From Craspedostauros australis (lineage: Eukaryota > Bacillariophyta > Bacillariophyceae > Mastogloiales > Achnanthaceae): a DNA stretch of 64,000 bases. Shown one piece after another: positions 25,198-64,000 of this stretch. The notes under the pieces were generated by a model. The model was not told the DNA's origin. It did no database searches and saw nothing but the letters and a program-made list of their open reading frames with translations. The translations under genes and the position numbers were made by a program. Where the stretch lies: contig JAMXDE010000021.1 of assembly GCA_026770025.1 (NCBI GenBank), forward strand, positions 620,001-684,000, given 5' to 3'. The stretch's first letter is position 1, and each line of letters starts with the position of its first letter.

Positions 25198-25232
25198 GAT
25201 GATGATGATGATGATGATGATGCTGATGATGG
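25198..25232. repeat. (GAT)n microsatellite
   Basis: GATGATGATG repeats with one interruption, about 185 bases upstream of the start codon of surface protein A. Confidence 0.7.
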
Positions 25233-26161
25233 TGCTTGTGATGGGAGACCTTCGTCGGTTTCACTTCGGAAGCAAGAATGTGCGCAAAGCCCGTTCTTCC
25301 GTTTGCGGATCTTGGTGGGTGCTGTGCTTGGCAGCCTGGCTGGTGATGACAATGATGGCAATGATGACAATGACGATGCGGGAAAGTGCTGCTCAGATGA
25401 TCGCTGTCCACGTTGTTGTGAGAGTTTCGCAACCTTGGTGTTGCTAACAGTGTGAGAGGGACGCGACAGATGCGTTTTGGTTCGAGGACGAGCACGATCT
25501 ATGTTGCCACACAAGAATGTGGATTGATAGGGCCGTTGTTGCGTTGTGTTTTCCTTTCTTGCTACCTCTCTTGTGCGGAGTATGGTGTGGTGCTGTGTCA
25601 CGCAGAGGATCTGTGTTTTTCTGTTTGCCTGTCGTGTTGCGTTGCGAAAGTATCCGAGAAAGCTGTGTGTTTGCGCATTGCACTCAACCACGGTTGTCTT
25701 CCGTTTTGTGGTTGGATGATTCTGTCTTGTCACGCACCCTCATTTTCTTTTGGCCGGGACATAGGGCGATTTAACGTCATTCGTTACTCCATCGGCATTG
25801 AAAGCCGTTCAAACATGTGGGAAATGCCGATCCGAGCAAGCCTCCTCGACAACTTTATCGTGCCAACGCTATCAACCATCGTCGGGCGCAGTTCCGTTAC
25901 GCCTCGTTTTTGTTGATTGTCATTGCAGATTCATCAACATCGTCTCCGTCTCCGTCTCCATTCTCGTCCATGGATAGTCGCCATCACCATTCGCATGGAT
26001 GGAATGCACTCCATCATGCCCTTCTTCTGGGCGGAGTACTATGCCGTCGCATTTTGTAAACTGGTGAACACTGCGCGCAATGTACATGACGAAAACTCAA
26101 AAGAAGTCCGATCGGAGTTGAACCACATCCGCGACAACCTCCGCATTGCATGTGAATGACA

Positions 26162-29049: not shown

Positions 29050-29852
29050 CTTGGAGGTCTCAGTGATGCTTTATTGGTGAAGCTGTTGGTGCTCTCAATG
29101 TTATTATATGTCGAGGTAATCGATCTTGCTTCCTGTTTTGTCTGTTCACAGAGTACTATAATAGTATGGTGTGCACAACTGCGAGGATGCTCTTGCGTTT
29201 CAGATTGGGATGTTTCCGAATTGTGTTGTTCAGACTGAGTGCAAAGGAACTCGGCTCAGCCGAAGCCAGCGCAAGTCAATGGAGCTCAGCGTCAATGCAA
29301 GGCAATTCGATGCAAAGGAAGTGCATTTCATCGTGGAGCGCAGTACTCAACGAGTGCTATCAGATCAACTCTTCGTCATGTGATGTTTCGGGTGCGACGG
29401 CAAAGCCACCCCCGCCCATTGTCGATGGTTCAAACAGATGCTTTGCACCATTGTGGTGACAAATCCCGCGCATTCACATGTCCGAGTGTCGCCCTGTTCG
29501 AAATTTGAGTTTTGGCGCCTCAGGTTCATGGACGTTACGGATAACGCCCGCACATGATGCAACGTGCACACGCAACGTGCAGCATGCCGAGGCCACCAAC
29601 CCAACAGAAGGCGCAACGATTTCGTGAGAACGTCATCAAGTCGCCGCTCTCGTCACGACATTCTCACAATCCTTCTTTGCCGTCATGAGGACGAAGAACA
29701 CAAACAACATTGCCAGAACCCTTCCTTTTGCTCGAAATGAGGCGATGCTCTTATCATTATCATAACGATTATTATGATTCTTTTTATGCAAGAGAGTGTG
29801 GTTCCATTGGACCATGCTTACATGCAATATAATACGCGCCACCCACTCTGCT
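29050..29852. other. Intergenic between surface genes B and C
   Basis: About 800 bases. The B-side edge holds CAGAGTACTATAATAG at 29149-29164 and TTTTGGCGCC at 29510-29519. No gene recognised. Confidence 0.5.
29510..29519. promoter_or_regulatory. E2F-like TTTTGGCGCC
   Basis: Recurring motif, 461 bases upstream of the start codon of surface protein B. Confidence 0.3.
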
Positions 29853-32800
29853 CTACATGCAAGAGGCGTTGACTTCGAATTCTTCACTGCTGGCGTATCC
29901 TTCATACGGAGCATCAAAGCTGTTTCGCACGAGGAAGGCTCGGAATGTGCCTCGCATCCCGTCCACAGCATCCAGTTCGACATGGCCTTGCTGCATCACG
30001 CCTCGGCACATCTTGCTACCACAGGTCCAGGACCACGGCATGCTACCGCTGCGACCCAACGATGTCATGGAAGTGTGCGAGGGGTAGATGCCGATCCAAT
30101 CATCTTCCAACGCATCGCAGTTCTCGAATGAGACCGTGATGCTCTCTCCTGGCGAGTAGCACCTGGACCCTGCCGTGATGGTGGCTTTACACCTGCCACG
30201 GGATGATTGAGATGTTGGTCGCGTGAATGCCGCAGCGTCTGGTGCAGCAAGGACTTGCGCAACGGCAATGGTCTGTTCCGTCGGCAAGGTGCTTGGCACG
30301 GCGCTTGGTGATTCGGTCACTTCCAACTTTGCCGTTGGTTGGTCTGTGGGAAGATCGGTCGGTGCAGAAGTTGGTGCTGGCGAAGGTCTCGACGTTAGTA
30401 ACGCCGTCGCTCTAGAAGTAGGCATCGCGGAAGGTCCAGAAGTTGGTCTTGGCGAAGGTCTCGACGTTAGTAACGCCGTCGCTCTAGAAGTAGGCATCGC
30501 GGAAGATCCAGAGGTCGGTCCTGGTGACGGTTTCGACGTTAGCAGCGCCGTCGCTCCAGACGTTGGCAGCGCGGAAGGTCCAGAGGTCGGTCCTGGTGAC
30601 GGTTGCGAGGTTGGCTGTTCGGACAACATCGACGTTGGCAGTGCTGTCGGTCCAGAAGTTGATGATGCTGTTGATTCAACCGAGGGAGTCGCTGTTGGTG
30701 TATCCGTCACGCCCAACTGGGTCGGACTTGCCGTCTCGTTGGCTCTTTCATCGTCCCGAGCGGCATCAGTGGCATTGATGGTGGCAAGAGACGGCGCGGC
30801 CGACGGCATCACGGATGGCATCACTGACGGCAGTGCTTCGGTCGAGTTCGTCTCAAGCACTTCCGGGGTGAATGTGGGTGGCCACGATTGTGCGGCGTCG
30901 GCGCATCCCGAACCTTCGAAGCAGCAGACGGTGCAGCAGGGGCAGTCCACTTCGCGGCAATCTGCCGTGAGCTTGTTCAAGAACGTCGCATCGCACAGTG
31001 AACTCACAGAACCTGTGAAGCTGTTGCCTCCCAGGTACACGCTTCGCAATGAGTCCATGGCGCTCAGGTCGGGTACGGGACCGGACAGACCGTTGAAGTC
31101 CAAGATGACGTGTCTGAGGGAAGTGACGTTGGCCAGCTCGGAAGGAACCTCGCCCGTCAAGCTATTGCTTGCCAAGTCGAGGGTCCTCAACTGCATCATG
31201 TTACCCAGCTCGCTTGGGATTTCGCCCGTCAGATCATTTCGTCCGACGCCCAACATGGTCAAAGTATCGAGGTCACCAAACTCCGTTGGGATGGGACCGC
31301 CCAGCTCGTTCTTGGTGAGTTGGATCTCCCTCAATCCTGGCACCTTGGCGAGCTGTGTCGGAATGTTTCCGTACAACTTGTTGCCTGGCATCGCCAAGAT
31401 TTCCAAGCTCTCGATCAAAGACAGTTCGATGGGCACCGTGCCTTCCAAGCCTGTGTCGCGAATGGAGATCTCCACAACTTGGCCGGACTCGTTGCAAGTC
31501 ACACCGTTCCATGCGCATTCGTTCAATGCGTTCAGCTGAAAGTCATCAACGATGCGTCGGCCGCCGATGACCGCTGTTGTGTTTCTGAATCCCAGCATGA
31601 AACTGGCCATCGTCCATCGTTGGATGCGGCGGCCACTTGCAAGCGAGAAGTATTCTGAATCGGATGCTAACCATTCCATCGCTTCGTACTGCGGCGAAGT
31701 TGGATTCTGGAAGGGATGAAACGCTTCCGGCAGTCGGTTGAGAATGAGATTGCGAAGATTCAGAGCTGCGGCGTTGATCGTGGGTGCCATGGTTGGTGCG
31801 CTCGAGGCGGTTGGGTTTGCCGTGGGGACTGGGGTGGTTGGCTGTGCGGTCGGTGATTGCGTCGGCGCCATTGATGACAACGTCGTTGGCTTCGCCGTGG
31901 GAGAGCCGGTAGGCTGTTGAGTTGGAACGTTGGTGGGTGGTTGCGTTGGTGATGGTGTTGGCTCGAGGGTTGGGACCTGAGTTGGCACAGCCGTCAAGAC
32001 GGTTGGTGCTTCGGTCGTAACGATGGCTGATGGAGCCTCGGATGGGACGTCGCTCTCCACGAAACCAAGGCTGGGTGGGAATTCGAAGATGGTCTCCGAC
32101 TTTGCCTCCTCATCTTGTGACGAGGCATCCTGCGTCTTGATAACGGCCAATGCAGCGATGGCGCTGACGATGCCAATCGCGAGACATGCCATGCACACAA
32201 TGAGGCTGATGCGCACTCGTCTGCTGCGAAGAAAGCTCCTGCTTTGCGAACGGCGTTTGGGCATGCTGGCGATAGTGGAACAGTTGTCCAGCTCAATGTC
32301 GACCATGCCATCGCCCATGGCGCTCTCATTGCTTGGGGAGCGCGTCGGATCAGGTTGCAGCTCAAGATCTTTGGGAGACGCCGTGGTCATGGCACCTGTG
32401 GCTGCTGCTGACACCGCGAACCCTGGCACGTTGGATGTGTTCAAGTCCAGATTGTGGTAGGTAGAATTTTTCTGTATCGAGCTTGGTCTCTTCGGTGAGG
32501 ATGCCGGGCGCGAAGCGCGCGGGTTGTAAGCGCCCTTGCGTGCTCTGAAGCGGAACCAGCTCTTCGCGACACGCTCTTCGTGCAGTTGCTGCTTCTCCTG
32601 CTCTGTCAATTGGGAAGCCGATGCGGCAGATGAATCCGACGATCGTGGGGGATGCTGCGAATGGATGCCGCTTGCACGATCTGAGTTGCCGATCATAGTT
32701 GGGACTGGGCCGCTTTCTATGTCTCCGTGGTTCGCGTGTGCGTTGATATTGTCAACATCGGCACCCAGCCTCGCAGATCGTTGCATTGGGGCGCTTCCGT

Positions 32801-33140
32801 TCAACGTGCTGAGCGGCTGATCGTCCATGATGCCCGCAATGGTGGACTCGCCAATGAGACTGTCACCTGATCCACGCTGGCGATCCTTCATCATCGATCG
32901 GAAGTATGCGGCTTCCGGGTTGTCGCTCCACAGCAGGACGCTGTCGATGCCACCGTTGGTCGAATTGCCACTTGAGTGGTACGTGCTGTCATCGGAGGGT
33001 TGATGTAGTTGTTGCCGCGGTTGCTGCTGAGGTTGGCGGAAGTTGTTGTTGGTCGCGTCAGTCTTGCTTCTGTTGTCGCGGAGCTTCGTCACGCTTCTGT
33101 CCAAGGTGCTGCGAGCTTTGTGGGGTGCGTTCGTGGTCAT
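29853..33140 (-). CDS. Surface LRR protein C with long repeat stalk and C-terminal beta domain
   Basis: 1095 residues in one exon, from the first ATG of the frame at 33140; a longer frame upstream has no ATG. The N-terminal tail carries WSDNPEAAYF at about 71-80 and GDSLIGESTIAGIM soon after. The membrane helix is at about 311-334 after RSRRVR. A Pro-Thr stalk (about 365-455) leads to the cap TSPQYEAMEWLASD and CAWNGVTCNESGQ. Six or so LRRs (about 556-720, for example LTGEIPSELGNMMQLRTLDL) end in ADCREVDCPCCTVCC. A second long stalk (about 750-985) contains three 24-residue tandem repeats. The C-terminal domain has CYSPGE, DDWIGIYP, WSWTCG and FRAFLVRNS. In contrast to gene A the LRR part has no introns. 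A recognition or adhesion role is inferred. Confidence 0.87.
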   Translation of the reverse strand: MTTNAPHKARSTLDRSVTKLRDNRSKTDATNNNFRQPQQQPRQQLHQPSDDSTYHSSGNSTNGGIDSVLLWSDNPEAAYFRSMMKDRQRGSGDSLIGESTIAGIMDDQPLSTLNGSAPMQRSARLGADVDNINAHANHGDIESGPVPTMIGNSDRASGIHSQHPPRSSDSSAASASQLTEQEKQQLHEERVAKSWFRFRARKGAYNPRASRPASSPKRPSSIQKNSTYHNLDLNTSNVPGFAVSAAATGAMTTASPKDLELQPDPTRSPSNESAMGDGMVDIELDNCSTIASMPKRRSQSRSFLRSRRVRISLIVCMACLAIGIVSAIAALAVIKTQDASSQDEEAKSETIFEFPPSLGFVESDVPSEAPSAIVTTEAPTVLTAVPTQVPTLEPTPSPTQPPTNVPTQQPTGSPTAKPTTLSSMAPTQSPTAQPTTPVPTANPTASSAPTMAPTINAAALNLRNLILNRLPEAFHPFQNPTSPQYEAMEWLASDSEYFSLASGRRIQRWTMASFMLGFRNTTAVIGGRRIVDDFQLNALNECAWNGVTCNESGQVVEISIRDTGLEGTVPIELSLIESLEILAMPGNKLYGNIPTQLAKVPGLREIQLTKNELGGPIPTEFGDLDTLTMLGVGRNDLTGEIPSELGNMMQLRTLDLASNSLTGEVPSELANVTSLRHVILDFNGLSGPVPDLSAMDSLRSVYLGGNSFTGSVSSLCDATFLNKLTADCREVDCPCCTVCCFEGSGCADAAQSWPPTFTPEVLETNSTEALPSVMPSVMPSAAPSLATINATDAARDDERANETASPTQLGVTDTPTATPSVESTASSTSGPTALPTSMLSEQPTSQPSPGPTSGPSALPTSGATALLTSKPSPGPTSGSSAMPTSRATALLTSRPSPRPTSGPSAMPTSRATALLTSRPSPAPTSAPTDLPTDQPTAKLEVTESPSAVPSTLPTEQTIAVAQVLAAPDAAAFTRPTSQSSRGRCKATITAGSRCYSPGESITVSFENCDALEDDWIGIYPSHTSMTSLGRSGSMPWSWTCGSKMCRGVMQQGHVELDAVDGMRGTFRAFLVRNSFDAPYEGYASSEEFEVNASCM
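30387..30602. repeat. 72-bp tandem repeat in stalk of protein C
   Basis: Three consecutive 72-base units (30387-30458, 30459-30530, 30531-30602). Units 1 and 2 are nearly identical and unit 3 is more diverged. Each encodes 24 residues of the Pro-Thr-Ser stalk and keeps the frame. Partial units flank the array. Confidence 0.85.
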
Positions 33141-35299
33141 CTTGTCTGCGCTGTTGCTGTGGATGGAGGAGGATGCCAATAGTTCGACGGAGTATCTTGG
33201 TCTTGTTGCTTGCGAGTCGGAGTGTTGTTCTTGATTGCAGGATTTGGACAATAGACTCGAGGTTCCGTTCTGGTCCTTACGAATGCCTGACGGTTTTGTT
33301 CTTGTTTCGTGTTGCTTCGTAAGTGTAGGAGTAGGTGAGTATGGTATGACACGGTACGATGCGGTGTGTTGTGACGTATTGGTTGGTGTGGATGAGTGCT
33401 CGTATGATGCTTGCTGGGATTGGGATTTCAGTTGAGCGACTTTATGGGATGGTTGGTCTCTGTGCTTGGGTTGGGACTTTGTGATGTGCGATGTGTGATG
33501 GATGATGTGAGTCTGTCTTCTGCTTCCGCAACAGCTCGATTCAAGAGTGGATTGCTTGGTGGGTTGAGGTTGAGGTTGTTATGTCCTGATCAGATGGCAA
33601 GTTGGTGGGTCGGCGAGATGATTTGGTTGGTTGGTTGGGTGGTTGGTTGGCTGATGGATCGAGGCATGGGGAAGCCACATGGTATGCAAGTCGTGGAATG
33701 CCATGTTGGTTGTTCTCCCCCATGGTCCATCGCACACACAAACCATTGATGTGGTTTTGGGTCTTGTTGCTGTTGTCGAGAATTGTCAATGTTGTCGTTG
33801 GTCATATTCTCGTTGGAACTGATGTCTTGGCAGTTGATGTCGGTATTTGTCGTTGGTCTTTCAGTTGTTGCCGTGACAGTTGGTGTCGTTGGTTTTGTTG
33901 TTGTCGTTGTTGTTGTTGCTGCTGTTGCTGCCACGCCGTTGGGTATCGTCACTGTTGTCCTTTTCCGTGGGGCCCGTCAGCGAGTTGCAGAACCGTTCGG
34001 AGCATCGTTTGCGGACTTGCCGAGAACATTGGCGGCGTGTTTTTCTCTCCACGTTCCGCATGTTGCGCTTATTGCGCGTATTGCGCGTGTTGTGTGTGTT
34101 GCATTTGGTCGTTTTTGTGAAGCATCCCACAAACGGCGCCCTTGTGCCGACAAAGATAGAATGCACACGCATTTTACTTAACAAATGAGACACTCATACG
34201 ACACTTGACACTGTGAGTGGAACAACGGATACCACACAATAGCAACAGCCAAACTGTAAAATGGGACTCAACAATTAAGGAGGTAACTCGTGATTGATGA
34301 GGGAGTTGGTTGATGTGACAAGTAGAACGTTATTTGACGTTATCCCACAACGATCATTTTCTCAGCTGCCTCCACAACTCACATTTTTGCCAATCTCGTT
34401 CCACGTTTCTCTCTTGTCTCTCTTGGTGGCTGCGGACGCGGACATGTGTCTTGTTTCTTCCACGAGAGAGTTGCCCCTGTGTTTGCACGTCATTGGATGT
34501 GGAGTAACGTGGAGCAACATGGAGCAACAGTCTCAATGGGCATCAACAGTCTTCGCTGGTAGAATCACGATAACACTGTCGCAACATCAAACAAGATACG
34601 AGTAAGACAGGACAACGCAGCAACACGACAGTACCGCATCACGACGGCTCGGCCACACGACAACGTGACAACGCGACAACGCGACATGACAACAACAAGA
34701 TTACACGGCAACTTGGCGACTCGCTCACCTCCAACTCGCAACACATTAACACGCCGACAAACCGATACCCCAACTCGCAACACAGTGACACGCCAACACA
34801 CCAACACGACAGCATTCTCATACTCGTAACAAGCCCAGCCACAAGTGCGAAGACTCTGTTGGCACTGTTCCGTTTCTCTGCTTCGTCGCATCACCCGACA
34901 ACAAAAAAGCCTCATTCATCTGCTCATAATCTCTACGCTCACGTCCTTGCTGCATTCCGTCCACGCTAACAACACCAACGCCACGCCAGCTTCTACTCAA
35001 CGCTCACCATCCATCGTTGACCGTCCATCATCCATCTTCTTCGCTCTTCAACCACGTTCACTCGACCTTCAGCTCATACTGCAATCGCTAACCCATCCAT
35101 TCACCGATCTGTAAACACGCTGATACGCCGACAAGTCCGCAACTCCATCACCCATCAATCAGGCCACAAGCGAAACCGTGAACGTGAACGCCAAGCTCGA
35201 CTTCCACAATCAACTGTCACAAACTTTCCAGCACCGCAGCAATCACACGTACAAGCTCAAGTACAAGAACACAAGTATCGACAACCTCAGAGTGCAACG
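33141..35299. other. Long intergenic region
   Basis: Upstream region of gene C (minus) and of the next plus-strand gene. It holds GGTTGGTTGG-type repeats at 33622-33652, GTTGTTGTCG-type repeats at 33870-33935, and ACAACGCGAC-type repeats at 34600-34700. Frames through these tracts have biased composition and no family motif. The stretch from 34850 to 35299 is C- and A-rich on the plus strand, as expected of a leader. Confidence 0.5.
33622..33652. repeat. GGTT-rich simple repeat
   Basis: Imperfect GGTTGGTTGGTTGGGTGGTTGG tract upstream of surface gene C. Closely spaced GG pairs could form a two-tier G-quadruplex on the plus strand; this is inference only. Confidence 0.5.
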
Positions 35300-36796: not shown

Positions 36797-39309
36797 TTAG
36801 GGGTTGCCTGACCAGACGCTTAGATTGGCTTCCGAAGGAGTGTTGGTGACGGCCACTCGGATGGAGGTCGGTGGTTGCGATGGGCTGCTGCTTGGTTGCA
36901 TGGTACAGCCATCACAGCATTCACACAGGACCTCGGCGCAATCCACCCTTGCTGTGCGAAGTATCCTGTTCGGATCGTTGCAAATCTGGTCTGGCATGGA
37001 GCCAGTCAGTTTGTTCCTGGCAAGGGAAATGGCGTTGAGTCTCGGCAAGGCACCCACCTGTGAGGGGATGATGCCTTCGAGCTCATTGCCTCCCAGGTTG
37101 AGAGATTGGAGGCGTGCCAGATTTCCAATTTCGGAGGGAATTTCGCCCGTCAGTTCGTTATCCTCAAAGCCCAAGCTATCCAATTTTTGCAAACGACCCA
37201 CCTCAGTCGGGATTGGACCTACAAGGTCGCACCGTCCCAAACCAATGGTGAGGAGCTGGGTGAGGTGTCCAATCTCCGTGGGGATGGACCCCGCAAGTGA
37301 TGTGCGAACGAGGCGGAGTATTCTGAGACCCGTGAGCTGTCCCAGCTCGGTTGGGATCTCACCATGAATGCCCGCGTTTCCGTTGAGGTACAGGACGGAG
37401 AGCGAGCTGGACAGGAGGCCCAATTCAAGCGGCAGCGTCCCGGCCATGTCGTTGTCTCTGAGGTCCAGCTCCCTGACTTCGCCCTGCCCGTTGCATATTT
37501 TCTCGCGTGAGTACCAGCTGCATTCGTCGGTGTAATCCATCCAACCATCTGATTCAAGCCAATCGTTTCCACCCAAGCTGTAGAAGAAAGATCCGAGAAC
37601 CCAACGCTGAACGGCCTTTTGCGGAGTGTAGGTGGGGTACGATGGATCCCGTGCCAACCAGACAGCAGCCTTGTACTGCGGCGAGAGCTCATCGGCCAAG
37701 GTACTCGTAGCATTGGCTGATGCAGGAAATTGCAAGAGAAGGAAGGCGATGACCTCCTCGATCGGAGCTGGTTGCGTTGGAACTGCTGATGCCGCTGATG
37801 GTCGCAACGATGGTCTGGTGCTCGGCAAAGAAGTGGGCAAGCTGGTTGGTACGATAGTTGGCCCGTGGGTTGGTGCCTTTGTTGGCGGTTGGGTGGGCGA
37901 AGAAGTGGTCGGAGTTTCCTGTGCCACCGGCTTCTTGTCTTCCACGGTTGGACCCTGGGTTGGTTGTGCCGACGAAATGACTGCCGCGGGAGACGAAGAC
38001 GACGACGAAGTCGGAGATGCCACGCTGCCGGATGGGGTTGATGTCGGAACTCCTGTCGGGGCGTTGGTGGTGGCATCGCCGACATCAGATCCTTCATCCG
38101 TGGGATCTTCACTCTGAAAGACTGGAGCGAGAGACGGTTGAGCAACCGGTGCCGTGGTTGGGAAGGCTTGGACTGGATCGTCACGGCCGGGAAATCCCTC
38201 AAATTCGTCGGAACCGGCTTTGGCACTTGCCTCGCTGTCATCCGATTGCAGCACCTGGACAACCCCGATGGACGCAATGACGATGAAAATACAGAAAAGG
38301 CAGAGGGATGCCACAAGTGCCCGTCGCACGACAACGTTGCGAAGAGAGTCTCTCAGGAATCCTTTTGGTTTTTCCGCCTCGAACATTCCCTCCTTCGTCG
38401 AAAGCGTGTTGTTGTCAGTATCCGCCCGATCTCTGACCGGAGGCGTGTGCGGCGCGATGTTTGGGTAGACGTACTCCACCGGTGACACGTCCTGATGCTG
38501 CGGCGTCATGACGTGCTGCTGCGGCATGCCAAGACGCGAGTTCGTGTCAGCGTAGTATCGCCCCGGTGTGTATCCGCTCAGCGTGCTCATCTGCTGATCC
38601 TCGGGCATGTCGGAATCATAGTTTGGGTACACCTCGTATCCATCCTGCACGCTGTGCAAACTCTCGGTTGGTGGTGGATCTGTGTGTAGTCGTATGCGTG
38701 CACGCAACATAATCGATTGGTACGAATTTGATGCATAGTACGATTAGGACGAGTATTCCGTGACATTGAATCCGAGGCAGAATTGGATGGCATTTCGTCA
38801 ATTCCATGATGAATGACGAATGATGATGCACAACATGGGATGGCACGACCATGGAAAGCGTTTGCCAATGCCAGGGTAGAAGCCAAACGTGGGTAGCCAA
38901 AAGGAGTAGATTGGCATGCATAAAGTTGAATTTGGCGCAATGAAGGAACATTGAACAAGAGCGGATGTTGTGAGACTTGGAGGCCTGCGCATGGGCATGT
39001 GTTGATGTGGAACATACGAATGTATTTGTAATGCAATGACATGCAAGCCCATGCCATTCACAGCAATGCACAGCAATGCACAGCAATGACCGATATCCGA
39101 GAGAAGCACCAAATGCTGACCAAAGTGTGCAAGCACTTACATGCCGTGAGGTCCCTCATGAGGCTGTCACCAGCCAGACTATCATCAGCCCCTTCGTAGG
39201 TGCCGTACTGTTCCTTCCGCCGCTCCATGACAATCTGCTGGAGGTACGCATCCTCTGGCTCATCGCTCCAGAGGACCTTGTCCGTGTGCTCCGTGACGAT
39301 CGATTCCAT
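36797..39309 (-). CDS. Surface LRR protein D
   Basis: Two exons, 39309-39141 and 38679-36797; donor T|GTAAGT and acceptor CACACAG|AT, both phase 1; 683 residues. Exon 1 encodes the N-terminal motif LWSDEPEDAYLQQI and ADDSLAGDSLMRDL. The membrane helix lies at about 177-200 after VVRR. A Pro-Thr/Ser stalk with runs such as PTQPPTKAPTHGPT follows. The cap has LSPQYKAAVWLARDPSYPTY and MDYTDECSWY. About six LRRs (for example LTGEIPSEIGNLARLQSLNL) end in RVDCAEVLCECCDGC. Unlike A and C, the protein stops soon after this cap and lacks the second stalk and beta domain. Reading frame, splice phase and the shared N-terminal motif all support the two-exon model. Ligand unknown. Confidence 0.83.
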
Positions 39310-47450: not shown

Positions 47451-50319
47451 CTACGGTTCCAGCGCATCAGGCTGGCACTGAAAGCAGCAGTCCGTGCAAC
47501 AATCGCAGAGGATCTCATCGCAGTCGGCGTAGAGCTGGTTGATGGATGACGCGTTGCAGACGGATTGCGGCATCTCTCCAACGATGTTGTTCTTGTAAAG
47601 TCTGAATGTCTCCAAAGAAGCGAGCGAACCCAGCTGATGCGGAACGTCTCCAATGAGCTCGTTCCTCTCGATGCTGAGGACGCGAAGATGGGAGAGCCGC
47701 GATAGTTCTTCTGGGATCTTGCCATCCAAATCGTTGCGTGATATGATCAGAGATTCTGCGGAGCAATTGTGTTGGGATGTGAGGGTATCAACAACAGCGT
47801 GTGTTCGTTCCCAGTGATGACGACGACAGACACGTAAAACGTAGAAAAGGGAAGAAACCACTTGGGAAAAGATAGCATGCCATTTGGTGTCATGTGAGTC
47901 TGCTTGTCATATGATGCCATGTGATTGTTGATAGAATTGCATGGATGTATGTTGTCACACCATGGAATTCCTCGCATACTCATGCATTGTACAACTACAA
48001 CTACGAGATGAACGTACCTAGCTTCGACATGGCTCCGACGTAAGATGGGATGCTCCCTGTCAGCTTGTTGCCTTGTAGGTTGAGAGTGACTGCGAAATGC
48101 AATGCAATGCAATGCGATACGGCGTAGCGAAAGGTGATGTGCGAAAAGAGGACCTGTTAGTGGACGCTTGACGATCATATCTTGAAGGGTGCGTGTTTGG
48201 ATAGCACCATGGGTATGTACTCTACTCGTTTGGGAGAGAAGTTACTGCCCGCGAAGTGTCATCTCGCGCAGTGCATACATGGGGCCACAGTACAAGTAAT
48301 ACCAACAGCGACTGCAGCTGCAAAAGCATGCGGAATAGAGTACAGATGCCCACCTCTCGAGAGGAACGTACCGAGGTTGGAGAGCAACGCGATTTCGGAT
48401 GGGATCGATGATTCCAGCCGATTGCTGCCGAGGTGCAAGGTCTGCAGCGTGTCTGAAAGCATCCAAAGTCCCGATGAGAGATTCCCACCCAGGCTCAAAT
48501 CTTCCAAATGGATCGTGGTCAGGTTACCATCACTGTCGCAGACAGTCTCTGCACTGGTGATGTTGCTGGAGCGAGCTCTATCCATCGTGTTTGCGTCGTG
48601 GAATGTTGAGAACCAGGTGCATTCATCGGTGTAGGTCATCCACCCGTTCATGCCGTCCGCTCCGAAGACGATGCGTGAATCCAACGAGATGTGCCTGTTC
48701 CGACTGTATGATCCTTCCAGATAGATCATCGCCATTGCGAAACGCTGCAACAGACGAGTGGACATGTACGAGGGGAATGCAGGATCGGCCAGAAGCCAAT
48801 GCAAGGCTCTGGATTGGGGGCTCTGCTCATCCTCAAAGTCGGTCGTGCCCTCTCGCATTTTGTTCGTAACAAGGTCCTTCAGGAGCAGCTCGTTTGCCGT
48901 TGTTGGAGCGTCGCTGGGGGACTCACTTGGGAGCATCGTCGGCCTCGAGGTGGGTGACATGGAGATGCTTGGCGTATTCGAAGCAGTCTCAGTTGGTGTT
49001 TGAGAGGTGGAGCCGTTGGTTGGTTCTTGGGTTGGCATACGCGTTGGAGGGTGTGTCGGTATGAGCGCTGGTGCTACGGTGATTCTGGAGACCTCGTTGG
49101 GCGCGTTGGGCGGAAGCGAGATGCTCGGGCTGAGTACTGGTGCGCTTGACACATCCGCCGACGAGGATGACGACGATGATGATGAACTTGAAGTGGAGCT
49201 GTCATTTCGACGCACGTGCATCAGCAGCAACCCACAAAGGGCGACAGTGATTGCAGAGATCACGCACAGCACTGCCGTCGCCAGGACATATCTCTTGAAA
49301 CGTTCTTGTCTGTTGTGGATCAGGAGTCGTTTGTGGGATGCATTTGGATACTTTGCACCCTTCTCCTGGTGCGACGTCCGGGTCTTGACCGGACTTTTGT
49401 TACTCGCGACGAAAGTGACTTCACTCTTGCGAACTGGTCTACCGTTTCCATTGGAAGCATCTCGTCTCCGTTTGCCCTCGCAGTCGCTCACAATCTTGAG
49501 ATTGTCTCCAGTGTGCTGATATCGATACTTGCGATTGGCTTCGAGGTCATCATCGTTGAGCTGAGCACGTTGAGGTCTCCCACGCTTGCTCTGCGCAGGC
49601 CGATGTTGCTGTCGAGTAGCTCTGGACGCACGGTTCGACGATGGCGTCCGTTTGCCAACACTCTCTATCTCGGGAATGCCGCACTCTTCTGCAATATGGG
49701 AGGCTACCTGCGCCATATCCACAATGCTCAAGTCATCCTCCATGTATCCGTCGTGATCTTGATCTCGTTGAGAAAATCCTGATGACATGCTGCGGTTCTT
49801 GGCTTGTTGACGCTGGTGACCATTGGCATTTCTGTTGCTGTTGCTGCTGCTGTCATTGTGCCCTCTACTGTTTGATTGGCCCTTCGTGGGTTGCAGCAGA
49901 GCCTCTCCTGTGCTGACCACACTGCGAACGGACGCGATCAGTCGCTGCCTGATCTTCCGCTTTTCAGCTTCATCCGTCGTTGTGGCTTCCGTGGAATTGG
50001 TCGTGTCAAATTGTGCGTCACTTCGACGATGGCGACCATCAACCGCGTCATCCCATGCTTCGTCTTCTTCATCCTCCTCTTCCACCTCGTGGATGGTGTC
50101 TACGAACGGCCTGTCATCATCTTGGAAGAAGCTCTCTCTTGTGGATTCATACAGAAACCGACGCATGAGGTCGTGATCGCTGTCGCTCATTCCTTTTGTC
50201 TCGTGGTCGGAACCACTACGCTCCAGCGCCTCCGTCTGTTTCTGCCTTCGCGCACTCCTTTTGACTCTCGCCTTGACACCTGAAGTGGCAGCCTCGAGGT
50301 CGACACCATGTTGCTCCAT
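47451..50319 (-). CDS. Surface LRR protein E
   Basis: Three exons, 50319-48372, 48089-48018 and 47755-47451; GT-AG, all phase 1; 774 residues. A long, highly charged cytosolic tail (1-340) has an acidic run EVEEEDEEDEAWDD. The membrane helix lies at about 344-368 after RQERFKR. A Ser run and Pro-Thr stalk follow. The cap has QSPQSRALHWLLADPAFPSY and MTYTDECTWF. LRRs such as LNLQGNKLTGSIPSYVGAM follow, exon 2 being exactly one 24-residue unit. The array ends with ADCDEILCDCCTDCC, and the protein stops nine residues later, with no second stalk. The SDNP-type N-terminal motif of A, C and D was not found here. Same family as A, C and D but set apart by about 8 kb. Ligand unknown. Confidence 0.84.
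48097..48114. repeat. (AATGC)n in intron of E
   Basis: Short AATGC run right before the acceptor of exon 2 (48090), within the first intron. Confidence 0.6.
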
Positions 50320-51670
50320 AATGTTCTTCCCTGAAATCTCGCTGTGATTGTGTCGCCTTTGGTTTCCAGCCGTTGTGGATGTTGTATTAGTGCGAGTGAA
50401 GTCGCAATACGTCTCAGTTGGTTGTCCTTTACTCGATTTCTTGATGCACCTCTTCGGCTCTCTTCCGTGGAATTGATGCAGATACTCGTCTCGGGAGACT
50501 GATTCTCTCGTGATGTCTCACTTGGTTGCAATGCACCCTTGTTTTCTTTGGATGTTTGGATGTTGTGGCTGTTGCCGACTCTAACTTTTGAAATCGCTTT
50601 TGGGTATCGATGCCAATGTCAATGTTGATGTCAATGTTGATCGAATGTTGATCTAATGTTGATCTAACGTTGATCTGGTTGCATGATTGCAGACGCCGAT
50701 GGTCCTTGTCCTTGAGCTTGTGATCGAATGAATGTCCGCGGTGGGCTTGTCGCCATTCGCTATCACGCTTGCATGAAAGTGTTGGCAAGCAGAGATAAGT
50801 GCTGATACGATGATGACGGAGCAGAGAATTGAATGATACTCTGCCAATACTCTACTATTCTACAGATTTTGATGCAACTGCTGATGTGGCTGTGAGTGTG
50901 ATAGCGGGAGCGGGCAATGCGGGGGAGGGATCATCATCGCTGCTTTGGTTCGTTGACGGGTGTTTGGTGGAGAAAGGAAAACCAATCATGTGTGAAATTG
51001 TTTTTGGTTGGAGGCTCTCTATCCAATTCAAATTTCAAGTGGCCCCAGTTTCTCAGCCTGTGTGTGGCTGACGCGTTTCCGTGAAGGGCATGCGAGCGAC
51101 ACACACGAAACCGCAATGCCATTTGGCGCCATTTCTTTACAAGACACGAGTGATTCGACAAGGTGAGCGAGCCGAGGAGGGACGCGCAAAAAGCGTGGCG
51201 AGATGTCAGAGAGCACAGCGCAGAGCAGCGCGGGTGCGACAGAGTGCCGAATGGTGCATAGTACTGACACGGAGACCAGTAGTCGTATGAGTAGCTGGCA
51301 TTGGTCCGTGCGAGTTATGCATGTCGCAGGTACAGTACGCCTGGACTCGAATACGGATGCTAACAGCGCCACTTACATTTTCTAACCCCGTCTTGTAGCG
51401 CTGTCCTGGTGCTCAGACTAACTTCATGGACTACTCTTGGTTGGTTCGCAGCCGCATCAATTGTATTCGCAGGTTTGGTGGATCTGTCGTGGAGTCGTTG
51501 CAGATACTCTCCTGATGAATTCCCACCGTGTTTTCCACGTGTGACCTCGACTTCCAGATGTACGCGTGCCACTGCTAATCACAAGCACTTGTATCATTGA
51601 TCGTCCCGCTGTTCCATGACACTATCACGATGAATTCTCTCGTCGAAATGTGTCATGCGACGTCGTGCCG
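50320..51670. other. Intergenic
   Basis: Upstream of surface gene E. Short imperfect repeats of the GTTGATCTAATGTTGATC kind lie at 50625-50675. ATTTGGCGCC is at 51121-51130. No gene recognised. Confidence 0.5.
51121..51130. promoter_or_regulatory. ATTTGGCGCC motif
   Basis: One-base variant of the recurring TTTTGGCGCC motif, about 800 bases upstream of surface gene E. Confidence 0.2.
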
Positions 51671-58005: not shown

Positions 58006-58056
58006 CTACTCCCATTCGATTGTGGCAGGCGGCTTGGAGCTGATGTCGTAACAGAG

Positions 58057-58090
<34 letters not shown>

Positions 58091-60187
58091 CTGCTCATGG
58101 TGCCCATCACATCGTAGGGGAGGTGGTAAAAGTCCGCGGTCATGTAGTCTGTGGTCTCCACGCAACGGACGCTGGCGACCCATTCGTAGGTGCGTCCATC
58201 TCCCATGACGCCGACCGATTTGACCGGGAGCAAAACGACGAAGGCCTGACCGATCTTGCGGTAGTGACCGCTCTTCAACAGCTCCTCGATCACGATGTCA
58301 TCGGCTTCCTGGAGGATCTTGACCCGGTCGCGTGTCACCTCTCCCAGGATGCGGATGGCGAGGCCTGGACCAGGGAATGGATGGCGCCACACGCTGGTTT
58401 CATCGATTCCCAGCGCCATTCCCAGCTCTCTCACCTCATCCTTGAACAGTTCGCGAAGTGGCTCGATCAGCTTGAGCTTCATGGTATCAGGCAGACCACC
58501 GACGTTGTGGTGCGTCTTGATCGTCGCAGATGGGCCTTTGTAGGAGATTGACTCGATAACGTCCGGGTACAGGGTTCCCTGGAGAAGGTACTCGCAATTG
58601 CCATTCAGATCGTTCTCGATCTTGGTCGCCTCCTCTTGGAACACCTCAATGAAGGTGTTGCCGATGATCTTTCTCTTCTGTTCAGGATCGGTGACGCCGG
58701 CCAGCTTGTCGAGGAACCGGTCGCAGGCATCGACACATCTGAGGTTGACGCCGCAGTCCTCGCGCATGCGCTTGAGGACCTTCTTCGCTTCATCCTTGCG
58801 AAGGCATCCGTTGTCCACCAGCACCGCGTGAAAACGATCGCCGATGGCGCGGGTCATCAGCACGGCAGCGACAGTTGAATCGACGCCACCGCTGACAGCG
58901 CCGATAACATGGTGCTCCCCTACCTTGGCCCGAACCGATTCGATGAACTCATTGGCGTAGTCCGTCATCACCCAGTCCTGCTTCGCGCCCGCGATCTTGA
59001 TGCAGAAGTTGCTCAGGATCGTCTTTCCCAGCGGCGAGTGCGTCACTTCCGGATGGAACTGCAATCCCCACATCTTCCTCTCCGAATTCTCGATCGTGAC
59101 GAACTCGGCGTTTGGTGTCGCGGCTTTGGGCACATTCCAAACAGAAGACAAGAGCAGGCGTGGCGGTGCAATTCATCGTGAGAGATTGCCTCTGTGGTTT
59201 TCCTTTCAGACGGCTGTTCGTATGCGTATGCGCATGCGTATGCACATGCGCATGGGTTTGCGCTTCCATGTGCGTGTATGCTTGCATGTGCGCCTTGGTT
59301 TGTGGTTGCAGGCGTGGATCCGATATTGTCATGACGGATACTGAAAATGCGTACAACGGCCACGGCAACTCGCTGCCCTTGGGAATTGTCTTCCAATGCA
59401 AATGCAATTCCAAATGATCGTCGCCCAACGACACAGCACTGCTCCCCAAGTTCATTCACATTCTTCGAGCTTGCGCAATGAATGCGGGAATTTGCAATGT
59501 GCTTTGCACGCATTTCAGAAACCCTTGCCAACATTCACATCACGACATCCATGGAGAGTAGAGCATTTTGCCATTCACAGTGCTGTTCGTGGAAATTGCA
59601 CAGGACTCACCGACTGCCTTGAAGCCGTCTGGGGACTTGGTCAACTTGTCACCATGCGACATCCACATTTGGAATTCGTTGGGCATGCCATCGAAGAGCC
59701 TGGATTCGCAGCCTTCTACTCTCTTGACTATCGCCTTTCCGTACTCGTGCTTCAAACCCGGCTCGACGGCTCCGCCGAATGTGTGCGCCAGTTCCTGCAT
59801 ACCGTAGCAGATTCCCAGCACGGGGACGTCACGTTCCTCGATCAGCTTCCAAACTTCAGGCTTGACGTGCGGGGCGCCTTCGTCGTAGACGCTGCTGGGA
59901 CCGCCGCTCAGGATCACTGCGATGAGCTTGCGCTTGCCAAGCTCCTCGGCGGAGACCAGGCAGGAGTACAGTTCGCAGAACACATTGATCTCGCGGACGC
60001 GACGTGCGATCAAATGAGAATACTGGGACCCGAAATCCAGGATCGCCACCTGAGGGCTGCAGGTTTGTTGTTGGCGGTTGTTGGCGATTATTGTGGCATC
60101 CGTGGTGTTCCGGATGGCGAATGAAGCAATGTGGATAAAGTGAAGAGTTCGGTGCGAGGTGCAGTATCGGGGGTTAAGATTGATCAT
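58006..60187 (-). CDS. guaA: GMP synthase (glutamine-hydrolysing)
   Basis: Two exons, 60187-59611 and 59123-58006; donor G|GTGAGT, acceptor CAAAG|CC, phase 1; 564 residues. The class I glutamine amidotransferase domain has [33 protein letters not shown] with nucleophile Cys127, and QFHPEVTHS with the catalytic His just after the intron. The ATP pyrophosphatase domain follows with the P-loop [23 protein letters not shown], then the dimerisation domain with [11 protein letters not shown] and the C-terminal PPATIEWE. The enzyme makes GMP from XMP, glutamine and ATP. The ATG at 60187 is the first in frame and gives about 45 residues before the domain, rich in Asn, Arg, Thr and His. They could be a targeting leader, though cytosolic action is usual. 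Confidence 0.95.
59215..59256. repeat. Alternating purine-pyrimidine tract in intron
   Basis: ATGCGTATGCGCATGCG-type run with TG/CA and GC steps within the GMP synthase intron; Z-DNA prone by sequence rule. Confidence 0.6.
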
Positions 60188-61085
60188 TGCCTGTGTCTGT
60201 TGTGCCGCGATGCGCTCTGTATCCTTGTGACGTGTGACAATCCAATCGCAGGGAGAAATAGAGAAAGAGCGGCAGAGCCAACGAGGTGCTCCCAAACAAC
60301 AACACCGGCAGCGGTGGCAGCATGCATGTTGGCAACGCAACCTAAGTCAAGTGAAGTGTCCCGACAGGCTTCCACGATGCCAAGAGCAATGATTGATGGC
60401 CACTGCGGAATCTTACCGATCGTAGGCATCGAGTTGAGCTGATTGGGCCATCTTTTCGGTTTCGAGTTGTGGCTTTTCGTTTGTGTGTGACGAGAGTCTG
60501 TTGCGGGGATGTGTCCTGTTTTATGCCGCGCTGTGCTGTGCTGCGCTGATGCGGGTACGAAGTGCAGGTATCGGTATTGCTATCTGTGTCTGTGCCCTGG
60601 GTTTGGGTTGGGGTTTGGGTCTTGTGCCTTGTCTCGGGTGAACTTGTGTCGTTTGTTCGTGCCTTCTCTCTCGTTGGCGCCTGGTTGGCAGAATGAGACT
60701 TCACCGTTGTTCTTTCCTGTTATTCTTGATGTTCTGTCTGTTGCTTTCTTGTTCAGTGGTTGGAATGTTGGTCCGACCGTCTGCCGTTGATGGCACCCTT
60801 GTGAGAACAACACATCAACAGGCACGCGACACTGTCATCATCTCTTGGCCACGACGATTCGCAGAGTGCGGTCCTTCGCGCAAGATCGCAGTCTACCAAT
60901 GCCATGTTAGACGGAACTATTGGATGACATTGAACGGATGTATTGTATTCTACGAGAGTAGCCGTACGGTATTGCTCTTCACAATCTCGTGTTGTGGTAA
61001 ACGCGCATACTACATAGAATATAATACTATTTTAATGTACTGTGTATGGATATTGTCCTGCTCTACTCGTAAAGACACGCAATAG
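60188..61085. other. Intergenic between GMP synthase and receptor-PARP gene
   Basis: About 900 bases. GTTGGCGCCT at 60673-60682 is a weaker form of the recurring motif. GGGTTTGGGTTGGGGTTTGGG-like G-rich tract lies at 60598-60620. No gene recognised. Confidence 0.5.
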
Positions 61086-64000
61086 TTAGGACGCCCTGCT
61101 TTGTTCCGGGCGGGCGTCCTCGGTTCTGCGGAATGTCAACAAGTACTCGGGATAAGCCTGAGCGTCGTGATACACCACAAAGACCGATGGGTTGATGACG
61201 TCGTCAACGGTCGAATCGTAGAGCTCGAAGCTGTTGTAGGGCTTGGGATCTGGGGTCCTCTGGCCGTGATTTCCTCTGCACCAATCCCCCACAGCCACAC
61301 GGCACATGAACATATGCCGCGTGCCGTCGTCATCCGGGACGGCGTATGCCGGGTCCATGGAATACGATGCATCGCGGGCGAAATACACTCCCCCTCCGAA
61401 TGCCACGGCGTTGCGGCCAGAAAAGCTTCTGTTGAAGCCTTGCTGGTTGATCTTTTGGATGTTGTCTGCCTCTGTACCATGAAACAGCCACTTGCGTTCC
61501 ACCTGTCCTTTCAGGTTGTTGGTATAGGTGCCTGGGTGCTCCTTTTGTGTGGTCTGCATAGTCTGCAACTTCACGGTGTACGATTGCCAAAGGGACATGT
61601 TCTGCACACGTCTGATAGACGTGATCTCGACAGCATCTCTGTCTCTGGGGTGCAGCGTGCTTCGGAAGTAATCCTTCGCACATTGGTATTCTTGCGACTC
61701 TTCGCGCAATGGATATAGTCCATCCATGACGCGCGAACTTCCATTGCTCGCTGTGTCCCAGTTTGATGGTGCCCCGAGAGACGGCATTTCCGTTCCCATA
61801 TTCTTCGCCAGAGATTTCATCACACCGGCATCCGCGGCTTCGGTTGCGATTTTCGGGAACCATCCTGAAGTTCTGCGCAGCTCCATGGCGTCCATAATTG
61901 TGGCCTTGATCTTGTCATCGATCTGCGATGCCTGGCGGTTGTCGATGTTTCCTGCACTCTCCGTGAGAGGATCGAAGAGGACGTTGCCGTACGCCCAACT
62001 GTCGTCGTTTGGATGCTCTCGAACTACCTTGATAAGCTGGCCTACTCTGAGCGGGAGCAAGCCCAGATGGTCGCCGTTGATTTCATCGAAGCTGGGCGGC
62101 AAAGGCGGGAGTAAGTGACCTTGCTTGGGATCGGGTTGCAACTGGTACTCCTCGCGCTGGATGCGCCGGGCGTTCCCAGATTTCAAATTGACTTGCTTCA
62201 GTTCTTGGAGGTTCAGCTCGAAGCCCGCCCCGGTGTGAGCGTTCTGCTTCTTCTTGACGTTGCTGCTGAGCTCGATTTCGAGTATGGAGTCTTCAGGGTT
62301 CTTTTGGTAGTCTTGCCACCCTATCTCGATCAGCGTTGAGATTTCGCGGTTGTACGCAACAAACTGCGTCTCCGCCAGCCGCTCGGATTCTGGATACTGA
62401 TTGATGAAGCGTTGGTCCTCCTCCCAGTACCACCTCACAACCGTGGTTGGTGCATCGTTCATCGCCTGCTGGGCCTCGTTGTACTCCGCAGACGTCCGGT
62501 GCGGGACATTTTGCTTCACCTCCACGACCCCGGTCAATTGCACGTTGATTTGCTCCGCCATTTCCTGCAATTCCGCCGCGCTTTTTTGGAGTGCACGATA
62601 CTTTGCCCGGTTCTTCCTGCACATGATGAATGTAGCAATGACGAAGACCAGTGCCACGGCGGACGTGATGAACACGTAGTTCGGGATGCTGTCCTTGTCC
62701 TTCGGGAGAGGGGTCGAATCCTCGGGGATGATCCCACATGCAGTGTCCTCTCCCATGGCCGTTGGCACGACGCATAGGCCTTCCTTGTCGAGTTGGAAGA
62801 CTGGCTCGGTTCCGTCGGATGGCACCGTCACCTCGCCGACTGACTTCCATGCGTACGAGTCAGACGCAGCTCTCTGCAAGTTGACGATGGAGAACCTTGG
62901 GTCCTTTCTGTCGCCCGTTTCGGTGAAAGCGACGGGTCCACTGACTCCGTCGAACTCGAGCTTCTGAAGCTCCTGGACCACACTTGCACCATCTCTGCGC
63001 TTGTCGGCAGGGACACGACCGATGGCCTTCGCAGCGGAGACGATGGCATCCACCATCATCTCGGCAGGGTACTCGGGAAGATCGTCGTATGTGTCCAGCC
63101 CTCGCTGAGCGAGGTATTGGTTGAACCGTCGCAGGAAGTCCGCGTACTCCTCGTTCCTGTTGCGGAGCGGAACCACGCCAAGGAGTCCGGGGTACGGTCG
63201 TTCTGGCGAGAATTCGGGGCTGTACCGTTCAGCCCATGCTTCGGGTGCCAGCCACACCGCATCTTCTCGCGCCAACCCCTGGGCGTACACCTGGTCCAAG
63301 ATCTGGCTTGCGTCTTGGGCGTGCGCCACGAGAAGGATGATCTTCGAGTTCTGCTCAGAGTCAAGCCCTGGCAAGCTCTCCATGGCCTGGCGCACAGCGT
63401 CGGGGTCCACCATCGTGTTTCTCGCGTTGGCAGAGTCTCTCACGAAGGTGATGGTCGGCGCCTGGTAGGTCGTGCCACCCTGGGACTCCCACAAGTCGCG
63501 AAAGTCCTTGGTGAGATCTCTCGCGAATTGCTTGTCGGTCAGGAGGATGTGGACGTTCGTCCATCCCATTGCCTTGAGCACGCCCGCGAGGCCTCCGACT
63601 TGACCGAATTCGTTGTCGGGCGGGACCATCCGTGAGAAGAGCGGGTAGTCGTCGGCCCTGTCCGAGAAGATGGTGGCGGTAGACGAGATCGCCACTTGGG
63701 CGATGTTCTCCAAGGATGTGACCGTGGCAACGCTATTGGAAGCGCCGCTGCAGCGACAGCCTATCACGGCGTGGATCGCCTGGTCGAATTCGGAGCGGAG
63801 CTCCCAGTAGGCCCTGGACGCCTGCGCTGCGTCGCAGCCAGCATCTCCGATCTTACTGGTGATGGTGAATTGATCATTCTCGAAGATGTCGTCGTGCCAT
63901 CCATCGGTGGGGTCGTTGAGGAAGGCGACGACGGCATTGAAGAGATCGTAGCCGTATGGGGTGTTGGCGACTCCGTACAATCCAGCCATGTTGACGACGG
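61086..64000 (-). CDS. Receptor-like transmembrane PARP: ANF ligand-binding, TM, WWE, SH3-like, PARP (5' partial)
   Basis: Open from 64000 to a stop at 61086; numbering is from the in-window Met at 63989, but the domain starts earlier, so the true start lies beyond the edge. Residues 1-400 are a type 1 periplasmic-binding/ANF receptor domain (VAISSTATIFSDRADDYPLF, then FSRMVPPDNEFGQ and MGWTNVHILL). A membrane helix is at about 437-456, followed by basic residues and a short coiled coil (460-490). A WWE domain (about 515-612) has VRWYWEEDQ and ELKQVNLKSGNARRIQR. An SH3-like segment (about 644-718) has LRVGQLIKVV and GWFP. The PARP catalytic domain (about 750-955) has WLFHGTE (His837), GGVYFARDASYS (Tyr869) and PSVFVVY (Val936 in the third triad place), ending AYPEYLLTF. 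The H-Y-V triad predicts mono-ADP-ribosylation. This looks like a surface sensor coupled to ADP-ribosylation inside the cell. Confidence 0.9.
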   Translation of the reverse strand, partial: VVNMAGLYGVANTPYGYDLFNAVVAFLNDPTDGWHDDIFENDQFTITSKIGDAGCDAAQASRAYWELRSEFDQAIHAVIGCRCSGASNSVATVTSLENIAQVAISSTATIFSDRADDYPLFSRMVPPDNEFGQVGGLAGVLKAMGWTNVHILLTDKQFARDLTKDFRDLWESQGGTTYQAPTITFVRDSANARNTMVDPDAVRQAMESLPGLDSEQNSKIILLVAHAQDASQILDQVYAQGLAREDAVWLAPEAWAERYSPEFSPERPYPGLLGVVPLRNRNEEYADFLRRFNQYLAQRGLDTYDDLPEYPAEMMVDAIVSAAKAIGRVPADKRRDGASVVQELQKLEFDGVSGPVAFTETGDRKDPRFSIVNLQRAASDSYAWKSVGEVTVPSDGTEPVFQLDKEGLCVVPTAMGEDTACGIIPEDSTPLPKDKDSIPNYVFITSAVALVFVIATFIMCRKNRAKYRALQKSAAELQEMAEQINVQLTGVVEVKQNVPHRTSAEYNEAQQAMNDAPTTVVRWYWEEDQRFINQYPESERLAETQFVAYNREISTLIEIGWQDYQKNPEDSILEIELSSNVKKKQNAHTGAGFELNLQELKQVNLKSGNARRIQREEYQLQPDPKQGHLLPPLPPSFDEINGDHLGLLPLRVGQLIKVVREHPNDDSWAYGNVLFDPLTESAGNIDNRQASQIDDKIKATIMDAMELRRTSGWFPKIATEAADAGVMKSLAKNMGTEMPSLGAPSNWDTASNGSSRVMDGLYPLREESQEYQCAKDYFRSTLHPRDRDAVEITSIRRVQNMSLWQSYTVKLQTMQTTQKEHPGTYTNNLKGQVERKWLFHGTEADNIQKINQQGFNRSFSGRNAVAFGGGVYFARDASYSMDPAYAVPDDDGTRHMFMCRVAVGDWCRGNHGQRTPDPKPYNSFELYDSTVDDVINPSVFVVYHDAQAYPEYLLTFRRTEDARPEQSRAS

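Follow-up and report, generated by a model that had tools for sequence, protein, structure and literature searches.

A candidate membrane receptor with a flytrap ectodomain and a predicted mono-ADP-ribosyltransferase output in the diatom Craspedostauros australis

Surface receptors that carry kinases, phosphatases, cyclases or channels are known. ADP-ribosylation is mostly regarded as part of the way in which cells respond internally to stress, DNA damage or infection. WWE domains are known partners of PARP domains and read ADP-ribose. Venus kinase receptors are described as dimers that are activated by L-arginine (PMC2680970). For the S-helix of receptor cyclases, a role in preventing constitutive activation has been proposed (PMC1592074). 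PF00644 is among the Pfam descriptions given for a cluster of Monosiga membrane proteins as a whole (PMC5620054). In the parts of two surveys drawn on here, no PARP is reported in the two diatoms examined in 2010, and at least two PARPs are reported in Thalassiosira oceanica in 2014. A receptor joining a flytrap through a membrane helix to a PARP was not recognised among the matches listed for open PMC full text; the initial annotation knew of no described ANF-PARP receptor of this kind.

The window analyzed comprises 64,000 nucleotides of C. australis (contig JAMXDE010000021.1, positions 620,001 to 684,000). On its minus strand, an open reading frame (61086..63998) runs for 970 codons to its stop without an internal one; it is open at the right window edge, with its 5' end beyond the window. 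All features of the protein described below lie on this strand. The initial annotation had read the frame as uninterrupted and as encoding an ANF-type ligand domain, one membrane helix, a coiled coil, a WWE, an SH3-like and a PARP catalytic domain. The single frame was confirmed, the ligand domain and the PARP domain were recovered by profile and the single helix by hydropathy; the WWE domain is borderline, and the coiled coil and the SH3-like domain are not established. An order of flytrap, single membrane helix, WWE and PARP in one chain is thus supported by sequence, with the WWE borderline. The catalytic and ligand-pocket residues are those that a functional receptor enzyme could have. We favor, as somewhat more likely than not, a mono-ADP-ribosyltransferase of receptor type that spans the membrane once in type I orientation.

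The Venus-flytrap or ANF_receptor domain (PF01094) covers residues 43-376 (62871..63872), with E 1.3e-37 for the domain alone and 8.6e-37 in the whole protein (127.4 bits, cut-off 25.4). Residues 1-42 (63873-63998) probably form the first strand and helix of the fold. The best relatives in the PDB are mGlu6 (4e-15) and mGlu7 (1.8e-14), the natriuretic clearance receptor following at 2.5e-6. An ABC amino-acid-binding protein row in NCBIfam (24.2 bits, cut-off 477) is taken as distant kin. In mGlu1, a ligand role is described for Ser165, Thr188, Asp208, Tyr236 and Asp318 (PMC2680970). Their equivalents are S84, T107, D128, F158 and E253, of which the first four were computed from an alignment to mGlu7 and E253 was placed by eye; of these five amino-acid-binding positions, three are unchanged and the other two conservatively replaced. 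Retention of this pocket points to an amino acid or a derivative as the likeliest ligand.

The same pocket bears on a reading that is improbable but deserves consideration: a membrane-anchored, constitutively active PARP, in which the flytrap is there for targeting, oligomerisation or ligand trapping and does not gate the enzyme. Membrane PARPs with no described sensor are known, namely PARP16, a sponge clade-3 protein with an N-terminal membrane helix and Rhizarian clade-3 proteins (PMC4245714), and gating in the present protein is argued by analogy. However, kept amino-acid-binding positions are not predicted if ligand binding has been lost, and Venus kinase receptors, which share the plan, are reported to respond to ligand (PMC2680970).

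The PARP catalytic domain (PF00644) spans residues 768-957 (61128..61697), with E 1.3e-29 and 103.6 bits alone and 96.9 bits in the whole protein (cut-off 26.7). Its best solved relative is PARP15 (E 4e-43), with 47% identity to the PARP15 segment. Scores against PDB chains fall from PARP15 (150.6 bits) over PARP14 (142.1), PARP10 (108.1) and PARP12 (93.9) to the tankyrases (up to 31.4), a similarity rank that would place the domain in clade 3, in the PARP14/15 group. Alignment with PARP15 identified the catalytic His840 in FHGT (61479..61481) and Tyr872 in GVYFA (61383..61385), so that the first two positions of the H-Y-x triad are kept; S880 and Y885 are also as in PARP15. The third triad residue is Glu in poly-forming PARPs. 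Here it is absent, and Val939 (61182..61184), aligned with a Leu of PARP15, takes its place. Mono-ADP-ribosylation is therefore predicted, and a chain-forming ('poly') activity is not expected. An RNA 2'-phosphotransferase row in NCBIfam (12.3 bits, cut-off 231) and the Pfam rows PTS_2-RNA, DUF4446 and DyP_N, all below threshold, are taken as ART-fold kin or chance.

Valine at this position also occurs in PARP13, an inactive protein with the triad Y-Y-V, and would suit a dead or nearly dead domain kept as an NAD+- or ADP-ribose-binding scaffold. PARP13 lacks the His, though, while His840 is present together with Tyr872, Ser880 and Tyr885, and a hydrophobic third residue is common in mono-transferases. 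Precedents for scaffolds exist, described for PARP9 and suggested for plant RCD1 (PMC4245714). We regard loss of activity as a poor prospect.

A single membrane helix is located at residues about 441-460 (62619..62678), where the Kyte-Doolittle profile peaks at 2.64 (residue 442, 19-residue window), compared with 1.06 in the best window elsewhere. The basic stretch RKNRAKYR follows on the C-terminal side, which by the positive-inside rule indicates an N-out/C-in topology. Residues 461-491 (62526..62618) may continue as a membrane-proximal helix, possibly a short coiled coil or signalling helix. In one heptad register, seven of nine a/d residues between 463 and 491 are hydrophobic, which is suggestive and leaves the annotated coiled coil unestablished. 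Nine Pfam rows obtained with this fragment were all below threshold and are likewise regarded as ART-fold kin or chance.

No N-glycosylation sequon occurs in residues 1-440, and three occur in the supposed cytoplasmic part, a distribution counted against the receptor reading. The missing sequons favor a protein of an endomembrane (e.g. ER, vacuole or plastid envelope) that senses a luminal ligand, a variant that overlaps with the main reading and could be gated too. To our knowledge, the ANF_receptor domains of described receptors face outside, and the protein itself carries no sign of retention. With PARP16, an ER-associated precedent is reported (PMC3372510), but we give an endomembrane location little credence.

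The segment C-terminal to the membrane-proximal helix contains a possible WWE domain with inserts at residues 522-615 (62154..62435). The match to PF02825 reached 22.3 bits for the segment alone (cut-off 21.1) and 16.4 bits, below the cut-off, in the whole protein, and PDB sequences gave no match at E up to 10. The WWE assignment of the initial annotation is thus weakly supported, by the isolated segment and not by the whole-protein search or the PDB. A proline-rich motif, PPLPP, is found at residues 631-635 (62094..62108). The SH3-like segment at residues 644-720 (limits set by eye; 61839..62069) is unconfirmed. SH3_2 (PF07653) scored 14.5 bits over residues 647-668 against a cut-off of 21.8, and the PDB search at E up to 10 returned no SH3 chain, the only matches being two acyltransferases at 1.2. 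Single-sequence AlphaFold models, with mean pLDDT of 34.3 and, for residues 515-735, 32.9, were useless.

A chance open frame can be rejected. In 1000 random 6.4-kb sequences, generated with a first-order Markov model of the open reading frame and read in six frames, the longest open frame had 470 aa (mean 225), compared with the 970 codons observed. Third positions are rich in GC all along the frame, at 0.59 to 0.82 in ten 97-codon blocks, the lowest value falling at codons 680-776, just N-terminal to the PARP domain. Although this dip and the occurrence of introns in the genome (the GMP synthase gene needs one of about 0.5 kb) could be taken to mean two adjacent genes, a mis-assembly or a hidden intron that removes the membrane helix or the linker, such a division is very improbable, as the 391 residues separating the ANF_receptor and PARP profile matches are open, rich in third-position GC (0.59-0.75), and include the membrane helix as well as a probable WWE, a domain known to pair with PARP.

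Translation probably does not begin at the ATG of residue 4. This codon would fall within the opening strand of the flytrap, and the window shows no signal peptide ahead of it; the gene should therefore extend rightward. A second copy was not found in the window by tblastn, where no row other than the frame itself was better than E 1.9. The neighbors are LRR and PT-rich membrane proteins, SET and Josephin genes and the GMP synthase gene with its required intron. They fit a diatom origin, and a bacterial contamination or a viral gene was rejected on their account.

Relatives were sought in virus and prokaryote collections, so absence there says nothing about diatoms. Single-protein contig scans, which find close relatives only, yielded three pattern matches in viral contigs for the whole protein and three for the flytrap, none confirmed, and no pattern match for the PARP part; a two-row PARP alignment yielded 55, none confirmed. 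In prokaryote genome contigs, neither the 20 pattern matches of the whole protein nor the 64 of the PARP alignment were confirmed. Phage records searched by tblastn contained no relative, and no PHROGs family matched with an E of 0.001 or lower.

In the proposed mechanism of the receptor-type transferase, a small ligand, with amino acids or their derivatives as the likeliest candidates, would make the extracellular flytrap close. Flytraps paired in a dimer would pass this change down the single membrane helix and the amphipathic helix behind it, and the WWE-linker-PARP module in the cytoplasm would alter its ADP-ribosylation of itself or of nearby proteins. The WWE could bind the ADP-ribose made, holding or relaying the signal. 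We infer the plasma-membrane location, dimerisation, gating, ligand class and role of the WWE; ligand gating and dimer-driven catalysis would follow the analogy with described receptors. We also put forward tentatively, at somewhat less than even likelihood, that the protein represents a new class of receptor enzyme: an extracellular ligand of amino-acid type would be the direct switch for mono-ADP-ribosylation in the cytoplasm, the WWE attached to the enzyme would read the mark, and ADP-ribose would be the first intracellular signal. If true, ADP-ribosylation would join the list of direct surface-receptor outputs, and a protein working as its layout suggests would represent a new route from an outside signal to protein modification. 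Given the diatom surveys of 2010 and 2014, as far as drawn on here, a receptor-PARP would also bear on PARP evolution.

Compared with the PARP14/15 group of clade 3, the protein shares the catalytic domain, at the identity given above, and a probable WWE; it differs in its membrane receptor architecture, and no macrodomain was matched in Pfam. With PARP16 and the sponge and Rhizarian clade-3 proteins it shares a PARP domain in a membrane protein. The helix of PARP16 is C-terminal, however, and the passages drawn on do not mention a ligand-binding ectodomain for these membrane PARPs (PMC4245714). Diatom class C GPCR-like proteins with a PBP1 ligand domain have a flytrap-type ectodomain as well, but they are described with seven membrane helices, and PARP is not among the domains named in the part of the source used (PMC3727952). 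The present protein has one hydrophobic helix, and no seven-helix family appears among its Pfam rows.

Receptor guanylate cyclases (natriuretic peptide receptors) share the ANF/flytrap ectodomain, one membrane helix, a cytoplasmic enzyme and possibly a juxtamembrane coiled coil. Here, the enzyme is a PARP, neither a kinase-homology nor a cyclase domain is found among the seven Pfam rows with an E of 1 or less, and among solved structures the ectodomain scores nearer to mGlu receptors (4e-15), with the natriuretic clearance receptor at 2.5e-6. Venus kinase receptors, as described, likewise combine flytrap, one membrane helix and enzyme, and share the amino-acid-type pocket with its key Ser (PMC2680970), whereas WWE-PARP replaces the tyrosine kinase in the present protein, the same seven rows containing no kinase. 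The best reading is a plan as in natriuretic-peptide receptor cyclases and Venus kinase receptors, with a new output.

The minus-strand frame 61086-63998 joins a Venus-flytrap (ANF_receptor) domain, a single membrane helix, a borderline WWE domain and a PARP catalytic domain in one chain, an architecture that is real and unusual. The frame is uninterrupted, as described in the initial annotation; it runs for 970 codons without a stop and is left open by the right edge of the window, from which its residues are numbered. Across the same interval, the other two minus frames contain 22 and 12 stops, the plus frames 8, 22 and 45. The longest open frame arising by chance reached 470 aa (mean 225) in 1000 random 6.4-kb sequences, generated with a first-order Markov model of the frame and read in six frames. 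In ten 97-codon blocks, GC content was 0.59-0.82 at the third codon position versus 0.33-0.47 at the second, with the lowest third-position value, 0.59, in codons 680-776 directly before the PARP domain. Because the frame is open, chance frames are shorter and third-position GC is high, 61086-63998 is taken as one coding region.

Pfam profiles recovered both the proposed ligand domain and the proposed enzyme. ANF_receptor matched residues 43-376 with 127.4 bits in the whole protein (cut-off 25.4; E 1.3e-37 for the segment alone), and Peripla_BP_6 matched the same part with 51.9 bits (cut-off 31.7). PARP matched residues 768-957 with 96.9 bits (cut-off 26.7; E 1.3e-29 alone). Three more rows for the whole protein were all under cut-off. 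The proposed WWE domain (residues 523-615) barely passed its cut-off of 21.1 when scanned alone (22.3 bits), but fell below it in the whole protein (16.4 bits). Positions 2-67 of the 67-position profile are spread across 94 residues, so inserts are present, and the segment yielded no match to PDB sequences at E up to 10. The SH3-like domain was not established: SH3_2 gave 14.5 bits against a cut-off of 21.8 for the segment alone, and SH3 is kept as a lead, not as a result. A PPLPP motif stands between WWE and this stretch. Structure predictions from the single sequence gave no usable model.

The sole strongly hydrophobic stretch has a 19-residue mean hydropathy of 2.64 at residue 442, versus at most 1.06 in windows elsewhere, in agreement with the single helix proposed earlier. 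It is directly followed by RKNRAKYR; by the positive-inside rule, the flytrap would thus face outward, and WWE-PARP would sit on the cytoplasmic side, which contains NAD+. N-glycosylation sequons, absent from residues 1-440 and present three times in the cytoplasmic part, count against the receptor reading. Of the coiled coil claimed behind the membrane, a short stretch with weak support is left: at residues 463-491, one register has seven of nine hydrophobic a/d positions, the other six registers two to five. It may form a short coiled coil by analogy with the S-helix known from receptor cyclases (PMC1592074). Two cysteines, C409 and C421 (62736-62774, minus strand; residues 409-421), are located near the membrane, and C55, C81 and C83 elsewhere in the visible ectodomain. 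As their number is odd, one could be left for an intermolecular disulphide.

The nearest solved relatives of the PARP domain are PARP15 (4e-43; 47% identity to the aligned segment), PARP14, PARP10 and PARP12, with the tankyrases far behind; by similarity rank alone, it would be placed in "clade 3". His840 (FHGT), Tyr872 (GVYFA), Ser880 and Tyr885 are the same as the aligned PARP15 residues; these positions belong to the NAD+ site. The third triad residue is Glu in poly-forming PARPs and commonly hydrophobic in mono-transferases. Here it is Val939, in PARP15 Leu. The protein is predicted from these residues to be an active mono-ADP-ribosyltransferase.

The best solved relatives of the flytrap are mGlu6 (4e-15) and mGlu7 (1.8e-14); the natriuretic clearance receptor scored 2.5e-6. 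Ser165, Thr188, Asp208, Tyr236 and Asp318 of mGlu1 are given in a paper on Venus kinase receptors as the main alpha-amino-acid-binding residues (PMC2680970). Positions 127, 150, 170 and 198 of the mGlu7 chain share the mGlu1 spacing (23, 20, 28) and align with S84, T107, D128 and F158 of the flytrap. The Asp of the mGlu7 GSDSW motif, presumably the equivalent of mGlu1 Asp318, aligns by eye with E253. In this low-identity alignment, three of the five positions appear identical and two conservative, which would favour an amino acid or derivative as ligand rather than a peptide at the dimer face, the ligand type of natriuretic receptors. The mapping covers the five alpha-amino-acid positions; the distal-group residue (mGlu1 Lys409) lies outside it.

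Residues 1-28 (VVNMAGLYGVANTPYGYDLFNAVVAFLN) seem to resemble the first strand and helix of the type 1 periplasmic-binding fold, which makes Met4 an improbable start. A signal peptide and perhaps about 20 residues are expected right of the window. The neighbouring GMP synthase is split over two open frames, 58009-59172 and 59543-60346. Of 18 candidate GT-AG pairs that leave the joined frame open, the one preferred for its donor and the resulting protein bounds a 487-base GTGAGT...AG intron (59124-59610). Within this probable intron, CATGCGCATACGCAT-type repeats follow one another and might represent an expanded simple repeat. Since introns occur in the neighbourhood, an upstream exon of the receptor-PARP gene is possible.

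Pfam was applied to 40 of the 113 window frames of at least 150 codons. The matches (Copia-type gag/pol, LRR, SET, Josephin, diphthamide synthesis, RING with zinc ribbon, GMP synthase) fit a eukaryote; neither macrodomains nor further ADP-ribose families were matched in these 40 frames. Neither a tRNA nor an Rfam family at gathering score was found in the window. Copia-type gag and partial pol occupy one 1470-codon frame (2-4411, minus strand) extending past the left edge. A 513-codon frame (12806-14344, minus strand) carries a PcfJ-like domain (5e-07), a family from bacterial mobile elements. Four minus-strand frames (23231-25498, 29856-33578, 36800-38743, 48262-50517) look alike in plan by eye: their N-terminal half is disordered, and they carry a single membrane helix and Thr/Pro-rich PT repeats; in the LRR frames, hydropathy shows the helix. 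Pfam LRR matches were confined to 29856-33578 and 36800-38743; the other two, unmatched, share flanking motifs and could be interrupted by introns. Inside the LRR cluster lies an 820-codon frame (26611-29070, minus strand) with one hydrophobic stretch (1.91) and, by eye, PT repeats and two Cys-rich stretches, for which Pfam gave nothing at E up to 0.001. Such tandem LRR/PT-repeat membrane proteins look diatom-like. LRR tandem duplicates are reported from the Seminavis robusta genome (PMC7335047).

No relatives of the receptor-PARP were found in virus and prokaryote sequence collections, and a single sequence is known here. In a 2010 survey, neither of the two diatoms examined had a PARP (PMC2964712); a 2014 survey found two or more for Thalassiosira oceanica (PMC4245714). 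The latter portrays clade 3 as a heterogeneous group in which a sponge protein and Rhizarian proteins carry membrane helices; neither 'ANF' nor 'periplasmic' appears in the main text of that survey. In a survey of membrane proteins, a large cluster from Monosiga has PF00644 in its Pfam descriptions (PMC5620054), so further membrane PARPs may exist in protists. PBP1 ectodomains are carried by seven-helix receptors in a paper on diatom GPCRs (PMC3727952). Two papers on Seminavis do not use 'PARP' in their main text (PMC7335047, PMC8027222). Among the matches listed from full-text searching of open PMC papers for this layout, no flytrap-membrane-PARP protein was recognised by titles and abstract beginnings; protein databases may well contain an undescribed protein built this way.

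Ligand-gated ADP-ribosylation would be the bold reading of this protein. The protein is a member neither of the receptor cyclases nor of the Venus kinases. By build, it groups with the flytrap-single-helix-enzyme receptors, and by enzyme with the PARP14/15-type PARPs.
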